Part shown: in pieces, positions 1,509 through 36,322 of the stretch
How positions within the stretch are numbered: position 1 is the stretch's first letter
Layout of the letters: the number at the start of each line of letters is the position of its first letter
DNA from: a virus
Virus record (IMG/VR): IMGVR_UViG_3300050821_005333
Coordinates: 1-47,759 of that record
Reading direction: 5' to 3' (one strand)
Length of the DNA: 47,759 nucleotides
Position numbers and translations under genes: made by a program
The notes under the pieces: model-generated
Told to the model about the DNA's origin: nothing
Databases searched by the model: none
The model's input: only the letters and a program-made list of their open reading frames with translations

Positions 1509-1582
1509 GCACTAATCGTCTAATGGCAGGACATATTTGCTGAAAAGCTTATAAAATGCCGGTTCAAGTCCGGCTTAGGGCC
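1509..1582 (+). tRNA. tRNA-like element lacking a canonical anticodon loop
   Basis: A canonical D-arm (GTCT-AATGGCA-GGAC, 1518-1532) and a perfect T-arm (GCCGG-TTCAAGT-CCGGC, 1558-1574) are present. The acceptor strands 1509-1515 and 1575-1581 pair at six of seven positions (one A/G mismatch); one more pair, G1508-C1582, could extend them. The middle arm is wrong for a tRNA: 24 bases lie between position 26 and the T-stem, and no register gives a 5-bp stem closing a 7-base loop with T33. What folds instead is GCT-GAAA-AGC (1539-1548), a GNRA tetraloop hairpin, inside a weak ATA/TAT pair. No CCA is encoded. It is a degenerate tRNA gene or a deliberate tRNA mimic. Confidence 0.5.
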
Positions 1583-1902: not shown

Positions 1903-2112
1903 ATGAATGAGCATATGATCGAAGGAAATATGTATGAAAAGGATAAACAAGTTGTTTTAGAATATTTACCAGAGCTTTTAAAAGACATAACAGAAGAAGC
2001 ATACTGCCACCATACTCTTTATAAAGTTCTTGAAATTGCAGAGTTTCTTAGACGGGTTTTGCAATGTGAAGAAATAGCAGAGGAAGAAGCGCAAACAGAG
2101 ACAATAAATTGA
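1903..2112 (+). CDS. Small acidic helical protein, unknown
   Basis: The protein has 69 residues and an AGAGG sequence upstream of the ATG. It looks wholly helical (VVLEYLPELLKDITEEAY, LYKVLEIAEFLRRVLQ) with an acidic C-terminal tail. A possible 15-codon leader ORF (1859-1906, MKQAKKKAKIKEELS) overlaps its start and could couple translation. The next gene, an HNH endonuclease, starts inside its stop codon. No family is recognised. Confidence 0.6.
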   Translation: MNEHMIEGNMYEKDKQVVLEYLPELLKDITEEAYCHHTLYKVLEIAEFLRRVLQCEEIAEEEAQTETIN

Positions 2113-2633
2113 AAGATATCGTAGGAAAAAACTTTGGTCAATTATTCGTGTTGAAAAATGTTCCGCCTATATTTTCTGGCGGGGTTAAAAAACTTATGGT
2201 ATTGTGTCGGTGTGCTTGTGGTACAAAAAAGATTCTTAGAAAAGAATCAATTACAAGAAAAATTGCACCTGTTTTAACTTGTGGATGTTTGCAAAGGAAA
2301 GTTGTTAGTCTTCTTAAAGCTAGAAACACGATACACGGAGAAGGGGGAAAAACTACAGAATACTTTGTATGGCGTGGCATGAAAGCTAGATGCTATAATC
2401 CTAATGATCCAAGTTATAAAGACTACGGCGGCAGGGGTATTAGGGTATACAAACCATGGCGAAAATCCTATGTAGTATTTTTAAAATATATTTTAAAAAC
2501 AATCGGTCGGAAACCGGCTTTTGAATATTCAATAGATAGAATTGACAATAACGGGAATTATGAACCTGGAAATATTAGATGGGCCACTAAAAAACAACAA
2601 ATACATAATCGGAGAAAAAGAAAGTGTCGTTAA
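2109..2633 (+). CDS. Free-standing HNH homing-type endonuclease with N-terminal zinc ribbon
   Basis: The 174-residue protein starts at a TTG that overlaps the TGA of the upstream gene. It matches a widespread phage HNH family: an N-terminal Cys cluster (CRCACG, later TCGCL) for zinc, then HGEGGKTTEYFVWRGMKARC, YKDYGGRGIRV, and the conserved C-terminal block SIDRIDNNGNYEPGNIRWAT with a basic end. Such proteins nick DNA and spread by homing. The gene is squeezed between two genes with overlaps at both ends and looks more A/T-rich than its neighbours, consistent with a recently mobile insertion. Both flanking genes appear intact. Confidence 0.85.
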   Translation: MKDIVGKNFGQLFVLKNVPPIFSGGVKKLMVLCRCACGTKKILRKESITRKIAPVLTCGCLQRKVVSLLKARNTIHGEGGKTTEYFVWRGMKARCYNPNDPSYKDYGGRGIRVYKPWRKSYVVFLKYILKTIGRKPAFEYSIDRIDNNGNYEPGNIRWATKKQQIHNRRKRKCR

Positions 2634-3534: not shown

Positions 3535-5017
3535 ATTACCAAACTGGTTCAATGTAATTCCAGTTCAAGATAAGCGCCCACTTGTGAAGTGGGAGCAATA
3601 CATTGACAGGAAACAAACCCTAGAAGAAAAGGCCGAGCTTATGAAGCTGAATCCTAATGGCAAGGTCGGGGTAATATGTGGGCCAGTGAGCCAATTATTC
3701 GTCCTAGATGATGACGGAGGTTTCGATGAGAAAAAGTACTCCGTTCCAAAAACAAGGACAGTTAAAACACCTCGTGGAGGTAAGCACTATTATTTCAGAT
3801 GGATCCCGCAGTTGGATGGTAAGATTACCACTTGCACGGGAATCTTGCCGGGCGTTGACGTTAGAGGTCAGGGGGGATTCGTTGTCCATTACGAGTGGGA
3901 AAAGCACTCTAGCCTCTATCAATTTGCCGAGCCCCCTCAGTGGCTGATTGACCTATTACCAGATAAAGGGACTCATAGTACCTCAATGGTCGCACAAACT
4001 AAACAAAAGGCAGATGATCCATGGATTAAACAGCAATTTGATGAGATGAAGGAGGGAAATAGAAATGCCACCTTTACTAGCATTGCAGGAAGTCTACGTT
4101 CGAGAGGGTACAGCCCTGACGAAATATTTGTATTATTGCAAGGGAAGGCGAAGGAAGTTGATTTCAGTGATCACGAACTTCGAACAATTTGTGCGTCAAT
4201 TGGCCGATATGAACCAAGAGGGGCGGTATCAGGAAACGCATCATCTATCGAGTCATTGCTCGAAGACGATAGTCTAGAGGCCTTTTTACAGGAAGTCAAA
4301 CCACGCCAATGGGTTATACCTGGTTTGATAGCGAAAGAATCGATTACGTTTTTAGCGGGTTTACCGAAATGTTATAAGTCTTGGTTACTGATCGATCTTG
4401 CCCTAGAGGCTTCAAAGAATGACGGGAAGTGGCTAAATAAATTCCCTGTAAATAAGTGTAAGGTTTTGTATATAGACCAAGAACGTTCCAAAGAAGAGAG
4501 CCAAAGACGGTTTTTATCCCTAATGTCCGAGAAAAATATATCTTATAAAGACTTAAGTTTGCGAGTGAAGACCAAAACAAGAATCAAAATAGATTTAGAC
4601 GCGTCATTTGAAGCATTTAAACGGGAACTAAAGGAAAAACAGCCGGATTTAGTTTTGGTCGATAGTTTTATTAGGTTCCATACTAAAAACGTCATGGATC
4701 AAAGCGCCATCCAACCTGTACTAGAGAGGCTTACCGAATTACGAAATGAGTTTAAATGCTCGTTTGTGTTTATTTATCATGATAGAAAAACGACCTACAA
4801 CACTGAAACGAAACAACCACCGTCTTTCGAGGACATGGTGGGAAGTATTTTCATCTCTTCAGTGGCGGACCACTGTTTTTCTGTGCGGAAACAAGATGCA
4901 GAAACTTCTTTAGTTTATAATACGGCGAATAATTTAGGGGCCACTGTTGATCCATTTATGGTTAGAGTCATTGACCGGGACGAAGAAAAAACCAAAATCA
5001 GTGTGGAGGCTTTTTAA
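3527..5017 (+). CDS. Bifunctional primase-polymerase / RepA-like helicase
   Basis: The protein has 496 residues. The N-terminal half is an archaeo-eukaryotic-type primase-polymerase: FVLDDD (58-63) holds catalytic acidic residues, GGKHYYF (84-90) the conserved His, and VDVRGQGG (110-117) the third motif. Residues 178-232 (GNRNATFTSIAGSL through CASIGRY) resemble the primase C-terminal helical domain. The C-terminal half is a RecA-fold ATPase of the RepA/AAA_25 kind, with Walker A GLPKCYKS (278-285) and Walker B LVLVDS (375-380). Known relatives prime DNA and unwind the fork, so this is probably the replication initiator/primase-helicase working with the family A polymerase encoded downstream. 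Confidence 0.9.
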   Translation: MYKLPNWFNVIPVQDKRPLVKWEQYIDRKQTLEEKAELMKLNPNGKVGVICGPVSQLFVLDDDGGFDEKKYSVPKTRTVKTPRGGKHYYFRWIPQLDGKITTCTGILPGVDVRGQGGFVVHYEWEKHSSLYQFAEPPQWLIDLLPDKGTHSTSMVAQTKQKADDPWIKQQFDEMKEGNRNATFTSIAGSLRSRGYSPDEIFVLLQGKAKEVDFSDHELRTICASIGRYEPRGAVSGNASSIESLLEDDSLEAFLQEVKPRQWVIPGLIAKESITFLAGLPKCYKSWLLIDLALEASKNDGKWLNKFPVNKCKVLYIDQERSKEESQRRFLSLMSEKNISYKDLSLRVKTKTRIKIDLDASFEAFKRELKEKQPDLVLVDSFIRFHTKNVMDQSAIQPVLERLTELRNEFKCSFVFIYHDRKTTYNTETKQPPSFEDMVGSIFISSVADHCFSVRKQDAETSLVYNTANNLGATVDPFMVRVIDRDEEKTKISVEAF

Positions 5018-9237: not shown

Positions 9238-9492
9238 ATGATAAATGAACACGAACTGTTTTTAGAAGGACATAAACAATTGATAGGTATAATGAAATGG
9301 ATTTCGACACCACTAATATACGTTACCAAAGGTTCTATTGATCCCGCTACTCTGCAAGACATAGACTTTGGTTCTATTATTTTTGGTAATAAACCAACTG
9401 GACAAGGAATGGAAGTTTTGCATCAATTTCCTAAAGAAGATGTAACTTTTATTTTGAAAACCTTTTGTGAAAGCCATTTGAGGCTGAAATGA
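9238..9492 (+). CDS. Unknown protein of 84 residues
   Basis: It starts two bases after the polymerase stop and ends overlapping the ATG of the HNH gene. The N-terminus is helical and amphipathic (HELFLEGHKQLIGIMKWI), the rest mixed. No motif or family is recognised. Base composition looks slightly more A/T-rich than the polymerase, like the HNH gene that follows, so the two may have come in together; this is speculative. Confidence 0.6.
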   Translation: MINEHELFLEGHKQLIGIMKWISTPLIYVTKGSIDPATLQDIDFGSIIFGNKPTGQGMEVLHQFPKEDVTFILKTFCESHLRLK

Positions 9493-9794
9493 AAAAACCT
9501 AAAACATTAGAGCGGAAATTAGAATCTGCGCTCCGACTTATTTGGTCGAGAAGTTCAGAACGCCGCCAAATTATTAAAGATTCTTTAAATGAAAAGAAAG
9601 AATTTAAATGTCCTGTTTGTGGGGTAATGTGGGGTGCATGGGCTGCAGATGTTGATCACGAACCACCTTTAGGGGGCCTACAAAGTTGGAAAGACATTAA
9701 AGATTATATCCAACGCTTATTTTGGGGGCCGCAACGCCCTATGTGCAAACCATGTCATAAAGGAAAAACAGCAAAACAAAGGAAAAAGAAATGA
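9489..9794 (+). CDS. HNH endonuclease (small, zinc-stabilised)
   Basis: The 101-residue protein has the HNH nuclease pattern: CPVCGVMWG (first zinc pair), VDHEPPLGG (catalytic DH), and MCKPCHKGKTAKQRKKK (second zinc pair with the final His and a basic tail). The N-terminal 45 residues are helical and basic. It is one of several HNH proteins in the genome. It may be a homing nuclease or a DNA-processing nuclease linked to the polymerase just upstream. It is not next to terminase, so a packaging role is less likely. Confidence 0.85.
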   Translation: MKKPKTLERKLESALRLIWSRSSERRQIIKDSLNEKKEFKCPVCGVMWGAWAADVDHEPPLGGLQSWKDIKDYIQRLFWGPQRPMCKPCHKGKTAKQRKKK

Positions 9795-10866: not shown

Positions 10867-11547
10867 ATGATTGAAAAACCACGCGTACTATCATACGATA
10901 TCGAGGCCACGAACCTGTCTGCATCAATGGGTTATGTCCTCGCTATTGGCTATAAATGGCTAGACGAAGAAAAAGTGACTGTCCTTTCCATTGCCGATTA
11001 CCCCGGCAAGAAGCCTACAGATGATGGTCCGCTATTGGAAGCGTTTCGGAAAGTGCATGATTCAGCCGATATAGTTATTTTTCATTTCGGTGAATACTAC
11101 GACCAGCCTTTTTTAAACACCCGTCTATTGATTCATAAACGACCCCCTTTAGCAAAAGTGGCCATCGTAGACACTTGGCGTATCGCTCGTAAGCGTTTAA
11201 AGTTCCATTCGAACAGATTGGATGCCGTTGCAAAGGCCCTCGGATGTCCGTTTGTTAAAACAGCCCTAAATGGTAATATGTGGATTGATGCAAGCGCAGG
11301 TGATAAAAAAGCCCTAAAGTATATTGTTCACCACTGTAAAATGGACGTATTGGTCCTAGAATGGTGCTACAATAGAATTAAATGCATGTGGGATAATCAT
11401 CCTGCCGTTTATGGCCGAGAGAATTGCGTAAGTTGCGGCGGGTTAAAGTTTAGGAGTTTAGGTAGGCGTGTTTGCGCCAAAAACATATATCGTCGGCTTG
11501 TCTGCAAAAAGTGCGGTTTAGCAACGAAAGGAGAAATTATCCAATGA
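10867..11547 (+). CDS. DnaQ-fold 3'-5' exonuclease with C-terminal zinc ribbon
   Basis: The N-terminal 170 residues have the RNase H/DnaQ layout: YDIEATNL (Exo I D-x-E near residue 10), VIFHFGEYYDQPFLNTR (Exo II), LKFHSNRLDAVAKALG, and a final Asp in HHCKMDVLVL (Exo III). This resembles YprB-like ribonuclease H-type proteins. The C-terminal 50 residues form a zinc ribbon (CVSCGG and CKKCG). The substrate may be RNA or DNA. The gene starts two bases after the RNA ligase stop, which suggests shared RNA or DNA end processing. Confidence 0.75.
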   Translation: MIEKPRVLSYDIEATNLSASMGYVLAIGYKWLDEEKVTVLSIADYPGKKPTDDGPLLEAFRKVHDSADIVIFHFGEYYDQPFLNTRLLIHKRPPLAKVAIVDTWRIARKRLKFHSNRLDAVAKALGCPFVKTALNGNMWIDASAGDKKALKYIVHHCKMDVLVLEWCYNRIKCMWDNHPAVYGRENCVSCGGLKFRSLGRRVCAKNIYRRLVCKKCGLATKGEIIQ

Positions 11548-34154: not shown

Positions 34155-34173
34155 CTAAATTAGACTAATTTAG
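34155..34173 (-). other. Hairpin across the capsid stop codon
   Basis: CTAAATTA and TAATTTAG form a perfect 8-bp stem around a 3-base loop, overlapping the capsid stop. A further weak hairpin (CCC-AAGT-GGG) followed by TTTTC lies at 34117-34126. Together they may slow or partly end transcription after the capsid gene, or protect the capsid message from 3' decay. The A/T-rich stem makes a strong terminator unlikely. Confidence 0.35.
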
Positions 34174-35305
34174 GTTAGACTGATATTTTTAATTTTGACA
34201 CAGCGAGCAGGAAGCAAAACAAAGATCTGTTGATTTGTCCAAAGACGAAGTTCATAGGCATTAAACCCAGGAACATATTGGAAGAACTCATCAGAACCCA
34301 TAACCTGCGGCATGAACTCGATGTCCATTGAGCCAATGCGTTGCAGATGCTCATAAGGAAGAATGAACGCATCCCCTTCTTTGCAGAACAAGGCCGGGGT
34401 GATATTCATCGTACCATTTTGAGAGTAGAACGTCAGTTTCGTAGCTCCGTTCTCCATAAGAGTTTTCTTATAGGAACTGTCAAGCATACGAGCACCCGCT
34501 TGAGAGGTGATAAGGTTCGCCCATACTTTCGGGTTCACCAACACGTCAACTTCGGTATCCAAACCACGACCAACAGCCGCAGCAACAGCGTTCTGAAGAG
34601 ACAAGAACGTCAATTTGCCAGCAAGGTTGTCAATCACGTTTGATTTCCATAAGTCATACGTCGCAGCACTGATGTTGAACAGCGTACCAGTATTGGTAAG
34701 GATCTGGTCAACTCCGGTCATTTCGTTACCGAAAGCAGAGTTGAAGAACACATCCAACACAGTACCATTGGTCACAACAGCCGTATTAAGGGCGGCGATA
34801 CCAACAGAGGTACCAGAAACCGTAAGAGCGCGAGTCGTCGGATTAACCGCCGTGATCGTGAATACAGAGTCTGCACCGGACGAAATCAACGTACCGGCAT
34901 TATAGAACTGGATCTGGGCATTAACCGTCCCGGCCCAAATACCGTCGCTCCAGGTAATTTGAGAGAACGCAATGATTTCATGTGTGGAGTCAACGCTGGA
35001 AGAACCGCTTTGCTGGGTCTTTCCGAGCCCACTTCCACCATAAAGAGCGGCAATTTCCACACGTTTGGACATGGAATCGATCATTCTTTTGGTGATGAGC
35101 TTCGTAGCAGAAAGAAACGCAGCCCCTGATCCAAGGGATTGGGACAGCGCGTCATAAGCAATTTGAGACACGAGGGTGATCTGAGCAGGTTTAACCTGAG
35201 CATCAGGCACGTTCAAGCTGATAGGCCCATTTAGAGCATAGTTACCAGCGTTGTTCGCAGCGTACGTAAAACCGGCTTCATCTGAAAGTATAACGGGAGT
35301 ATGAA
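34170..35305 (-). CDS. Major capsid protein, exon 2 (C-terminal part)
   Basis: This is the larger part of a split capsid gene. Without exon 1 there is no normal start; only a TTG near 35216 exists. The exon begins with HTPVILSDEAGFTYAANNAG and runs to KIKNISLT. It has the features of an HK97-like/P22-like capsid family: LITKRMIDSMSKRVEIAALY, a beta-rich insertion, TEVDVLVNPKVWANLITSQA, and a C-terminal FNAYELRLWTNQQIFV. Joining to exon 1 gives 425 residues (142 + 1136 bases = 426 codons with stop). The predicted junction is ...GNA-F-HTPV. Confidence 0.85.
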
Positions 35306-35945
35306 CAAATATGTTATCGGCGAGTTCTTTATCTCGCCATCTACCAATTACTCAGTAGTTCGGAGTACATCTTCAAGAAGTTTTGTAACTTCTTGTTGGG
35401 TATTCTTGGGAGAATTATTTTCTAAATACTGGAATAGTTTTTTAGCTCGTTCTTTATCTTCCTTAAGTAGACCGAGTGCAGTGTTACAAGAAACACAAAG
35501 CAATCCGCGTATCTTTCCAGTTATATGACAATGATCAACATCTAGTTGACGAGATAATAGCTTCTGCGAAACATTACATGCCGCACAACTATAATTTTGC
35601 TTTTCAAGTATAGTCTGGTATTCTTCTACAGTTAGTCCGTACAGTCTTCGTAGTTCGTACTTCCGGCTTCTGTTTTGCATCTTCTTTTTACCTTCTGAAG
35701 ATGCCCACATCGCTTTTGTTCGTTTCGAGTTGCAGGATTTACACCGATAATCATAACCACTCGGTGTAGTACGGTCTTTATTAAATTCCCGTTCTATTTT
35801 AAACTCTTTGCAAATCGAACATTGTCTCATTTTAGTTTCATCTCCTACTCTCTACAGTGTCCGAAGGTATTATCCTTCGTCTTACCACGGAATTGCCCCG
35901 AAGGGTTTTTCCCGTTTTTACCCAATTTTAAATGCCCATCATTCT
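35306..35945 (-). mobile_element. Group I self-splicing intron in the major capsid gene
   Basis: The capsid frame ends at a TAG at 35944-35946 and resumes 640 bases later. In the transcript, exon end AATGCCT pairs with internal GGGCATT (35931-35937) to form P1 with the required U-G pair at the 5' splice site; the P1 loop is 8 bases. The core follows: P4 ACGG/CCGT, P5 CCC-TTCG-GGG (35896-35905), P6 GAAGG/CCTTC (35863-35878), P7 GAGTA (35846-35850) with TACTC (35363-35367), and P9 GGCGAG/CTCGCC (35319-35338). The intron ends in G (35306). Exon bases UCAU can pair with intron AUGA as P10. The endonuclease gene lies inside, between the two P7 strands. Confidence 0.85.
35348..35830 (-). CDS. Intron-encoded endonuclease VII-type HNH homing endonuclease
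   Basis: The 160-residue protein has an N-terminal zinc ribbon (CSICKEF, then CKSCNSKR) and the endonuclease VII/HNH core at the C-terminus: CAACN, LDVDHCHITGKIRGLLC, VSCNTALGLL. The catalytic DH is in VDHCH. As an intron ORF it should cleave an intronless capsid gene and drive homing. Its last codons (LEDVLRTTE) overlap the 3' strand of P7, so coding and ribozyme sequence are constrained together. Confidence 0.85.
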   Translation of the reverse strand: MRQCSICKEFKIEREFNKDRTTPSGYDYRCKSCNSKRTKAMWASSEGKKKMQNRSRKYELRRLYGLTVEEYQTILEKQNYSCAACNVSQKLLSRQLDVDHCHITGKIRGLLCVSCNTALGLLKEDKERAKKLFQYLENNSPKNTQQEVTKLLEDVLRTTE

Positions 35946-36087
35946 AGGCATTACCGACAAGAGTAGCTTTGTCAAACTCGACATTTTTCAACAGGACGCG
36001 GGACTCAGGAATTGCATCCTGAATACCACGAGTATTGTATCGTTCTTTAAAGTCTCCGATAATAGACGAGGGAATTGTAGCGGCCAT
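35946..36087 (-). CDS. Major capsid protein, exon 1 (N-terminal part)
   Basis: The ATG at 36087 has AGGAG 9-13 bases upstream. The 47 complete codons read MAATIPSSIIGDFKERYNTR, then GIQDAIPESRVLLKNVEFDK and ATLVGNA, plus one base of codon 48. Without splicing, translation would stop at the TAG directly after the junction. The helical N-terminal arm followed by a strand suits a capsid protein, and exon 2 continues directly in phase. Confidence 0.8.
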
Positions 36088-36322
36088 GGTTTTTTAATCT
36101 CCTAAATTTTTAATTTGGTTCTAAAGCAGGAACTACAGTAGGGGGATTTGGGTGGGTCTTAAGGTTACACCGTTCCGACATACTTCGAAGACGCCGTCAT
36201 CCTTTCGGGTAGATTCGGACTTTAAATTGTGCCAGTTTAAGGAGAGCTGGCTTCCTGTTCTAATTTAACGGGATTAGCGATCAACCTAACACCGAGGCGT
36301 TTAACCCTCACCCACAGTAGAT
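36088..36322 (-). other. 235-nt noncoding leader upstream of the capsid gene
   Basis: No open frame with a ribosome binding site is seen on either strand. The minus strand can form several hairpins, including GCCAG/CTGGC near 36235-36255 and the CTTCGAAG palindrome near 36183-36190, enclosed by CCGA/TCGG-type pairs. A long structured 5' leader before the capsid gene may hold a promoter, an RNase processing site or a translation enhancer for the most abundant protein. No clear -35/-10 pair stands out. Confidence 0.4.

Follow-up and report, generated by a model that had tools for sequence, protein, structure and literature searches.

Is the major capsid gene of a podovirus still read as one gene when its frame is broken by 640 nt carrying an endonuclease gene, and is the break a group I intron? 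An earlier note had said so of the window, as we call the whole stretch of 47,759 nt analysed here (IMG/VR record IMGVR_UViG_3300050821_005333, positions 1 to 47,759), for which no DNA similarity to phage records was found. The explanation we regard as very probable is a mobile, self-splicing group I (IA-type) intron with an endonuclease VII (EndoVII)-type homing endonuclease in a podovirus major capsid gene.

Capsid gene and insert

On the minus strand, the capsid frame ends at a UAG across position 35945 and picks up again at 35305, interrupted exactly by the insert (35945-35306, minus strand, 640 nt; last base G, the omega-G of a group I intron). Exon 1 (35946-36087, minus strand, 142 nt) ends in GCC-T, the last U of which pairs with a G in P1; exon 2 (34170-35305, minus strand, 1136 nt) has no start codon at its beginning. 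The in-phase join to 425 residues predicted in the earlier note held: with the insert excised in silico, 142 + 1136 bases give one 425-codon frame open to its terminal stop, and the exon frames on both sides are open and conserved.

The joined 425-aa product is a major head protein (PHROG 14242, matched by 10 of 10 relatives, best 2.6e-12); its NCBIfam capsid_maj_Podo match (1.9e-7) lies below the family cut-off. The gene follows terL, portal, and a scaffold-like gene. An AlphaFold model of the intronless capsid alignment was uninformative (pLDDT 41). Capsid production would be under splicing control.

A conserved structured leader lies upstream of the capsid ATG (36090-36310, minus strand) and is present in 12/12 phages examined (window, L002-L009, L011-L013). 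Its elements are ATTTAAA-TCC, a hairpin with a YACC..GGAYG internal loop, a CGAAAG-type hairpin, and a GGTG..CACC hairpin; no Rfam match was found for it, and a simple MAFFT/RNAalifold run recovered the last helix only, with covariation. A tRNA-Met (CAT) gene stands directly before the leader in L004, L005, L013, and L015, with tRNA-Asn between in L005. Elsewhere in the window, Rfam calls a tRNA at 1509-1582 (plus strand; 38.8 bits) that ARAGORN missed.

Intronless relatives and sister introns

Searching viral contigs with the joined capsid protein returned 12 relatives. Eleven of them (81-97% protein identity) are intronless and read an uninterrupted KATLVGNA-F-HTPVILSD exactly at the predicted junction, so that both the 640-nt interruption and the join of GNA to HTPV proposed in the earlier note are matched by exact empty sites. 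The nearest, L002 (97% identity), is among these. The twelfth, L012, matched over residues 49-425 only because a homologous insert interrupts its capsid gene, splitting codon Phe48 at the same point.

A third copy, in a different phage (L015), was located with the core pattern TTGGGTAAAANCGG...TGTAGAGAG. Exon 2 of its host gene suffices for a match to the N4-gp56 major capsid family (78.8 bits, above the curated cut-off), and in two genes 96% identical to that host gene (L174, L175) the intron is absent, LG-Y-QAGLSLD being joined at the predicted point. The inserts of the window, L012, and L015 have the 5' core in common, hold their EndoVII-type ORF in one and the same loop, and share a P7 variant, GAGUA/UACUC. 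Within the set of introns that the 3' core pattern retrieved, this variant is confined to them, the other genuine introns having UAUAGUC. That the insert is an assembly artefact or chimera might be suspected of a single contig of a virus collection, and yet L012, an independent contig, is interrupted at this site by a homologous intron that has diverged, and L015 carries a third copy in another phage; we regard an artefact as extremely improbable.

Five ORF-less relatives of the intron were retrieved with the 3' core pattern only. In a pattern scan of genome contigs, most of the 40 matches were chance coding sequence without a core. A search with the alignment of the three endonucleases gave 80 relatives, around whose ORFs a matching P7 pair was sought: the scan was convincing only for the already known L012 contig, and three other loci were chance matches away from the ORF. 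A single-sequence endonuclease search of viral contigs gave no matches.

One further intron was seen in an N4-gp56-like capsid gene (L191, about 600-1500), at another site (QYG|NYVGF) and with a LAGLIDADG-type ORF; such capsid genes have been invaded at least twice.

Ribozyme core and covariation

All helices lie on the minus strand. The internal guide sequence GGGCATT (35931-35937) forms P1 with exon AATGCCT (35952-35946), and the U-G pair at the 5' splice site is formed within it. The P3 5' strand TTGGGT (35920-35925) pairs with ACCCAA (35401-35396); P4-P5-P4' (35885-35915) has a UUCG loop capping P5; P6a is a CGAAGG/CCTTCG hairpin (35862-35879). In P7, GAGTA (35846-35850) pairs with TACTC (35367-35363) and the G-binding G-C pair is kept; in P7.1, GGAGA (35841-35845) pairs with TCTCC (35413-35409), near the far end of the ORF. 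P8 (AAGAAGTT/AACTTCTT, 35375-35394) lies within the endonuclease ORF, the loop of P9 (35342-35357) holds the ORF stop codon, and a P9.2-like hairpin (GGCGAG/CTCGCC) occupies 35319-35338.

With the ORF loop removed, the unconstrained minimum free energy (MFE) fold contained P1, P3, P4, P5, P6a, P7.1, P8, P9, and the P9.2-like hairpin, at -73.9 kcal/mol against -50.7 +/- 3.9 for shuffles (z = -5.9; 0/200 as good). Covariation was assessed over eight sequences, the three ORF-bearing introns and the five ORF-less relatives. The group I structure of 48 pairs, with P3-P8 and P4-P6 domains and P7 in pseudoknot order, is paired in 94% of cells; 24 pairs are changed on both sides (14.4 +/- 2.0 in shuffles), and the covariation score is 0.517 against 0.187 in shuffles and at most 0.14 in slid controls (0/500 shuffles as high). 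No shuffle attains any of the measures, and sliding the partners lowers pairing to 32-49%. The core that the earlier note had drawn (P1, P4, UUCG-capped P5, P6, P7, P9) held up.

Within P4, the first pair changes from A-U to U-A, and the fifth is found as G-U, A-U, G-C, and U-A. The first, G-binding pair of P7 is G-C in 8/8, and its third pair, C-G in the relatives, is flipped to G-C in the three introns that bear an ORF. P7.1, an extra helix of the kind that marks subgroup IA, is 100% paired, with 4/5 pairs changed on both sides; P6a, P8, P9, and P9.2 also covary. P3 is invariant but for one U-A/U-G change, so its support is conservation rather than covariation; P5 was poorly aligned by MAFFT (67% paired), and P10 is short (3-4 bp). 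Exon and guide change together, AATGCCT/GGGCATT in the window, AATAAGT/GCTTATT in L012, and CTTGGCT/GGTCAAG in L015, which bears out the U-G splice pair of the earlier note; L012 has Lys instead of the otherwise invariant Ala47 because its exon changed with the guide. Each intron ends in omega-G (...ATATTTG|TTCAT, ...ATACTTG|TTCAT, ...ATATTG|ATCAG). A P7.1 (or P7.1/P7.2) between P7 and P3 is the mark of subgroup IA (PMC3984707), and on these sequence features the insert is classed as a group I (IA-type) intron, predicted to be self-splicing.

Phage EndoVII-type genes are often free-standing and Rfam calls no intron here, as would be expected had an endonuclease gene been inserted without a ribozyme and split the capsid into two genes. 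We give this reading next to no credence: the non-coding 115 nt preceding the ORF, the 42 nt following it, and the last 66 nt of the ORF itself together show the fold and the covariation of a group I core; the insert follows a U, ends in G, and lies exactly in phase; and exon 2 would have to be expressed from no start codon of its own. Somewhat less improbable, though still unlikely, is a group I intron dead for splicing, the capsid protein coming from a second gene or as a truncated product; splicing is here read from sequence, and the window is one metagenome-derived record of unknown completeness. Against a dead intron, three independent copies retain every core helix and show compensatory changes, and in each of them the guide matches the exon; the exon frames are open and conserved, with a sister capsid 97% identical; and a second capsid gene was not noticed among the listed ORFs of the window.

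Detection by Rfam RF00028

The earlier note had staked the intron on a match to the Rfam group I model, and in this its expectation failed: RF00028 gave no match on the whole window, at the gathering threshold and at E <= 10, none on the 5' half alone, and none on the L012 and L015 introns or on 19 further endonuclease-relative loci (0/19). The silence on the window intron is best explained by its 483-nt endonuclease gene, which sits in the P7.1 loop and separates P7 from P3. With the same model, 64-79 bits are reached by the ORF-less relatives, and the published DNA-polymerase intron of LUZ24, with an EndoVII gene, is also missed; by these controls, the negative result does not refute the window intron. 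A 400-500 nt ORF inside the core appears to defeat RF00028; introns with a core-internal endonuclease are silently missed, and phage intron counts from the model are therefore probably too low.

One viral contig (L044 1998-10055, minus strand) has three RF00028 group I introns in a span of about 8 kb, and an abiF RNA match (49.7 bits) was obtained on another (L108 255-291, plus strand). Sequences resembling tRNA stand in the P7.1 loop of group I introns in L034 (about 11200-11310) and L044 (about 3700-3900, minus strand), with a CAT anticodon arm in L034 and T-arm-like stretches in both; ARAGORN made no call on either. P7.1 may be a general cargo site.

Endonuclease and its overlap with the core

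The endonuclease ORF (35348-35830, minus strand; 160 aa, 483 nt) lies in the P7.1 loop, after the 5' strand of P7 and before the 3' strand of P3, which refines the position between the P7 strands given in the earlier note. Its EndoVII type is supported by PF02945 (E = 4e-23, residues 60-138 of 160, towards the C-terminus), by a PHROG endonuclease VII match (E = 4e-36), and by PDB matches to Hpy99I and T4 endonuclease VII. The catalytic and zinc motif CX2C-DHxH-R-CX2C-N is complete (C82-C85; D99, H100, H102; R108; C112-C115-N116), so that all residues listed for the DHHRN family (CX2-4C, DHxH, R, CX2C, N; PMC6083498) are present. Between the window and L012 endonucleases dN is 0.33 and dS 2.8 (saturated), which fits purifying selection; judged from its sequence, the endonuclease is intact. 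Two HNH endonuclease genes, apparently free-standing, are found elsewhere in the window (2109-2633 and 9489-9794, plus strand; PHROG 374 and PHROG 1985).

The last 66 nt of the ORF overlap P7.1', P3', P8, P7', and the start of P9; the overlap with P7 in the earlier note was correct, but takes in more than P7. The ORF extends furthest into the core in the window (66 nt), less far in L012 (42 nt), and least in L015 (27 nt), variation of the sort predicted by the 'core creep' hypothesis (PMC3073962). The NTQ tail residues, conserved in all three endonucleases, are encoded by the P3' strand.

Shortly before the ORF start, GGAGA of the P7.1 5' strand is Shine-Dalgarno-like (-7.8 kcal/mol in the window, -7.0 in L012, -9.0 in L015; other genes of the window phage -5.6 to -9.3, background mean -2.6). 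With this site in the 5' strand and the ORF end in the core, endonuclease translation and ribozyme folding are probably mutually exclusive on any one transcript. An equally good site occurs at the same place in the ORF-less relatives (-7.6 to -10.0), so the likeness may be a by-product of the helix, or a pre-adaptation, rather than a selected switch.

Proposed splicing and mobility

Each of the three introns has an in-frame stop, either across the junction (GCC-U|AG, AAG-U|AA) or two codons beyond it; group I introns usually have a stop near the 5' splice site (PMC3073962, PMC3984707). We propose that the UAG built across the exon-intron junction of the window would halt ribosomes arriving from exon 1 and so leave the core free to fold. 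P1 (exon AAUGCCU with guide GGGCAUU) would then present the 5' splice site, G would be bound in P7, and the exons would be joined after the terminal omega-G to give the 425-residue capsid protein.

In the capsid tree, the window and L002 form a clade (100/100) outside which L012 falls, and this requires a minimum of two gains or losses of the intron; absent from a sister at 97% identity and present in a distant relative, the intron appears to be mobile. This patchy distribution is consistent with the predicted cleavage of intronless alleles: the EndoVII-type enzyme would cut such capsid alleles near the site, and the intron would spread by gene conversion.

Discussion

The novelty that the earlier note implied for an intron in a capsid gene was overstated; such introns are known from mycobacteriophage LittleE and lactococcal phage Tuc2009, and splicing in LittleE was proven by RT-PCR and N-terminal protein sequencing, according to the passages of PMC3706429 dealing with them. 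As there described, the major capsid gene of LittleE (Cluster J) likewise has an insert that is probably a group I intron and that contains an endonuclease gene, exon 1 ending in U and the intron in G, and intronless relatives are known; LittleE differs in its 819-nt insert, its LAGLIDADG-like gene on the opposite strand, and its phage lineage. No covariation-supported structure is given in those passages, unlike here.

EndoVII-type intron endonucleases are known from DNA polymerase introns (PMC6083498), for example in LUZ24. Pseudomonas phage LUZ24 (NC_010325) is also a podovirus with a group I intron and EndoVII-type homing endonuclease (41% identity to that of the window over 81 aa) and has a similar terL-portal-scaffold-capsid order; the intron interrupts the DNA polymerase gene instead, with the ORF apparently in the P6a loop and not in P7.1, and no similarity was detectable between the two capsids. 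The F-CphI/DHHRN family shares the motif and the catalytic domain towards the C-terminus, whereas F-CphI is free-standing beside psbA and the window enzyme is intron-encoded in a capsid gene (PMC6083498). As in T4 td/I-TevI, the ORF overlaps core helices, a ribosome-binding site lies in an RNA helix, and an in-frame stop stands just past the 5' splice site; td has its ORF in the P6 loop, a GIY-YIG enzyme, and a 20-nt overlap, against P7.1, EndoVII, and 66 nt here (PMC3073962). P7.1 placement is absent from the examples in Table 1 of PMC3073962. To our knowledge, three things are new: the P7.1 placement, the occurrence of a single intron subfamily in two capsid families that are unrelated, and an overlap with the core that is graded from intron to intron. 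Only tentatively, and as something we rather doubt, do we raise the possibility of a mobile intron subfamily specialised for capsid genes (flipped P7 pair, EndoVII in P7.1), present in at least two unrelated capsid families, with P7.1, at once ribozyme helix and ribosome-binding site of the endonuclease, acting as a built-in switch that would allow a transcript either splicing, and with it capsid production, or endonuclease translation, but not both.

The range of capsid-gene introns now takes in this podovirus group and two families of capsid, and P7.1 joins the sites at which the ORF of an EndoVII-type endonuclease is found. The ORFs of the three sister introns reach to different depths into the same core, a natural series that makes the 'core creep' hypothesis testable.
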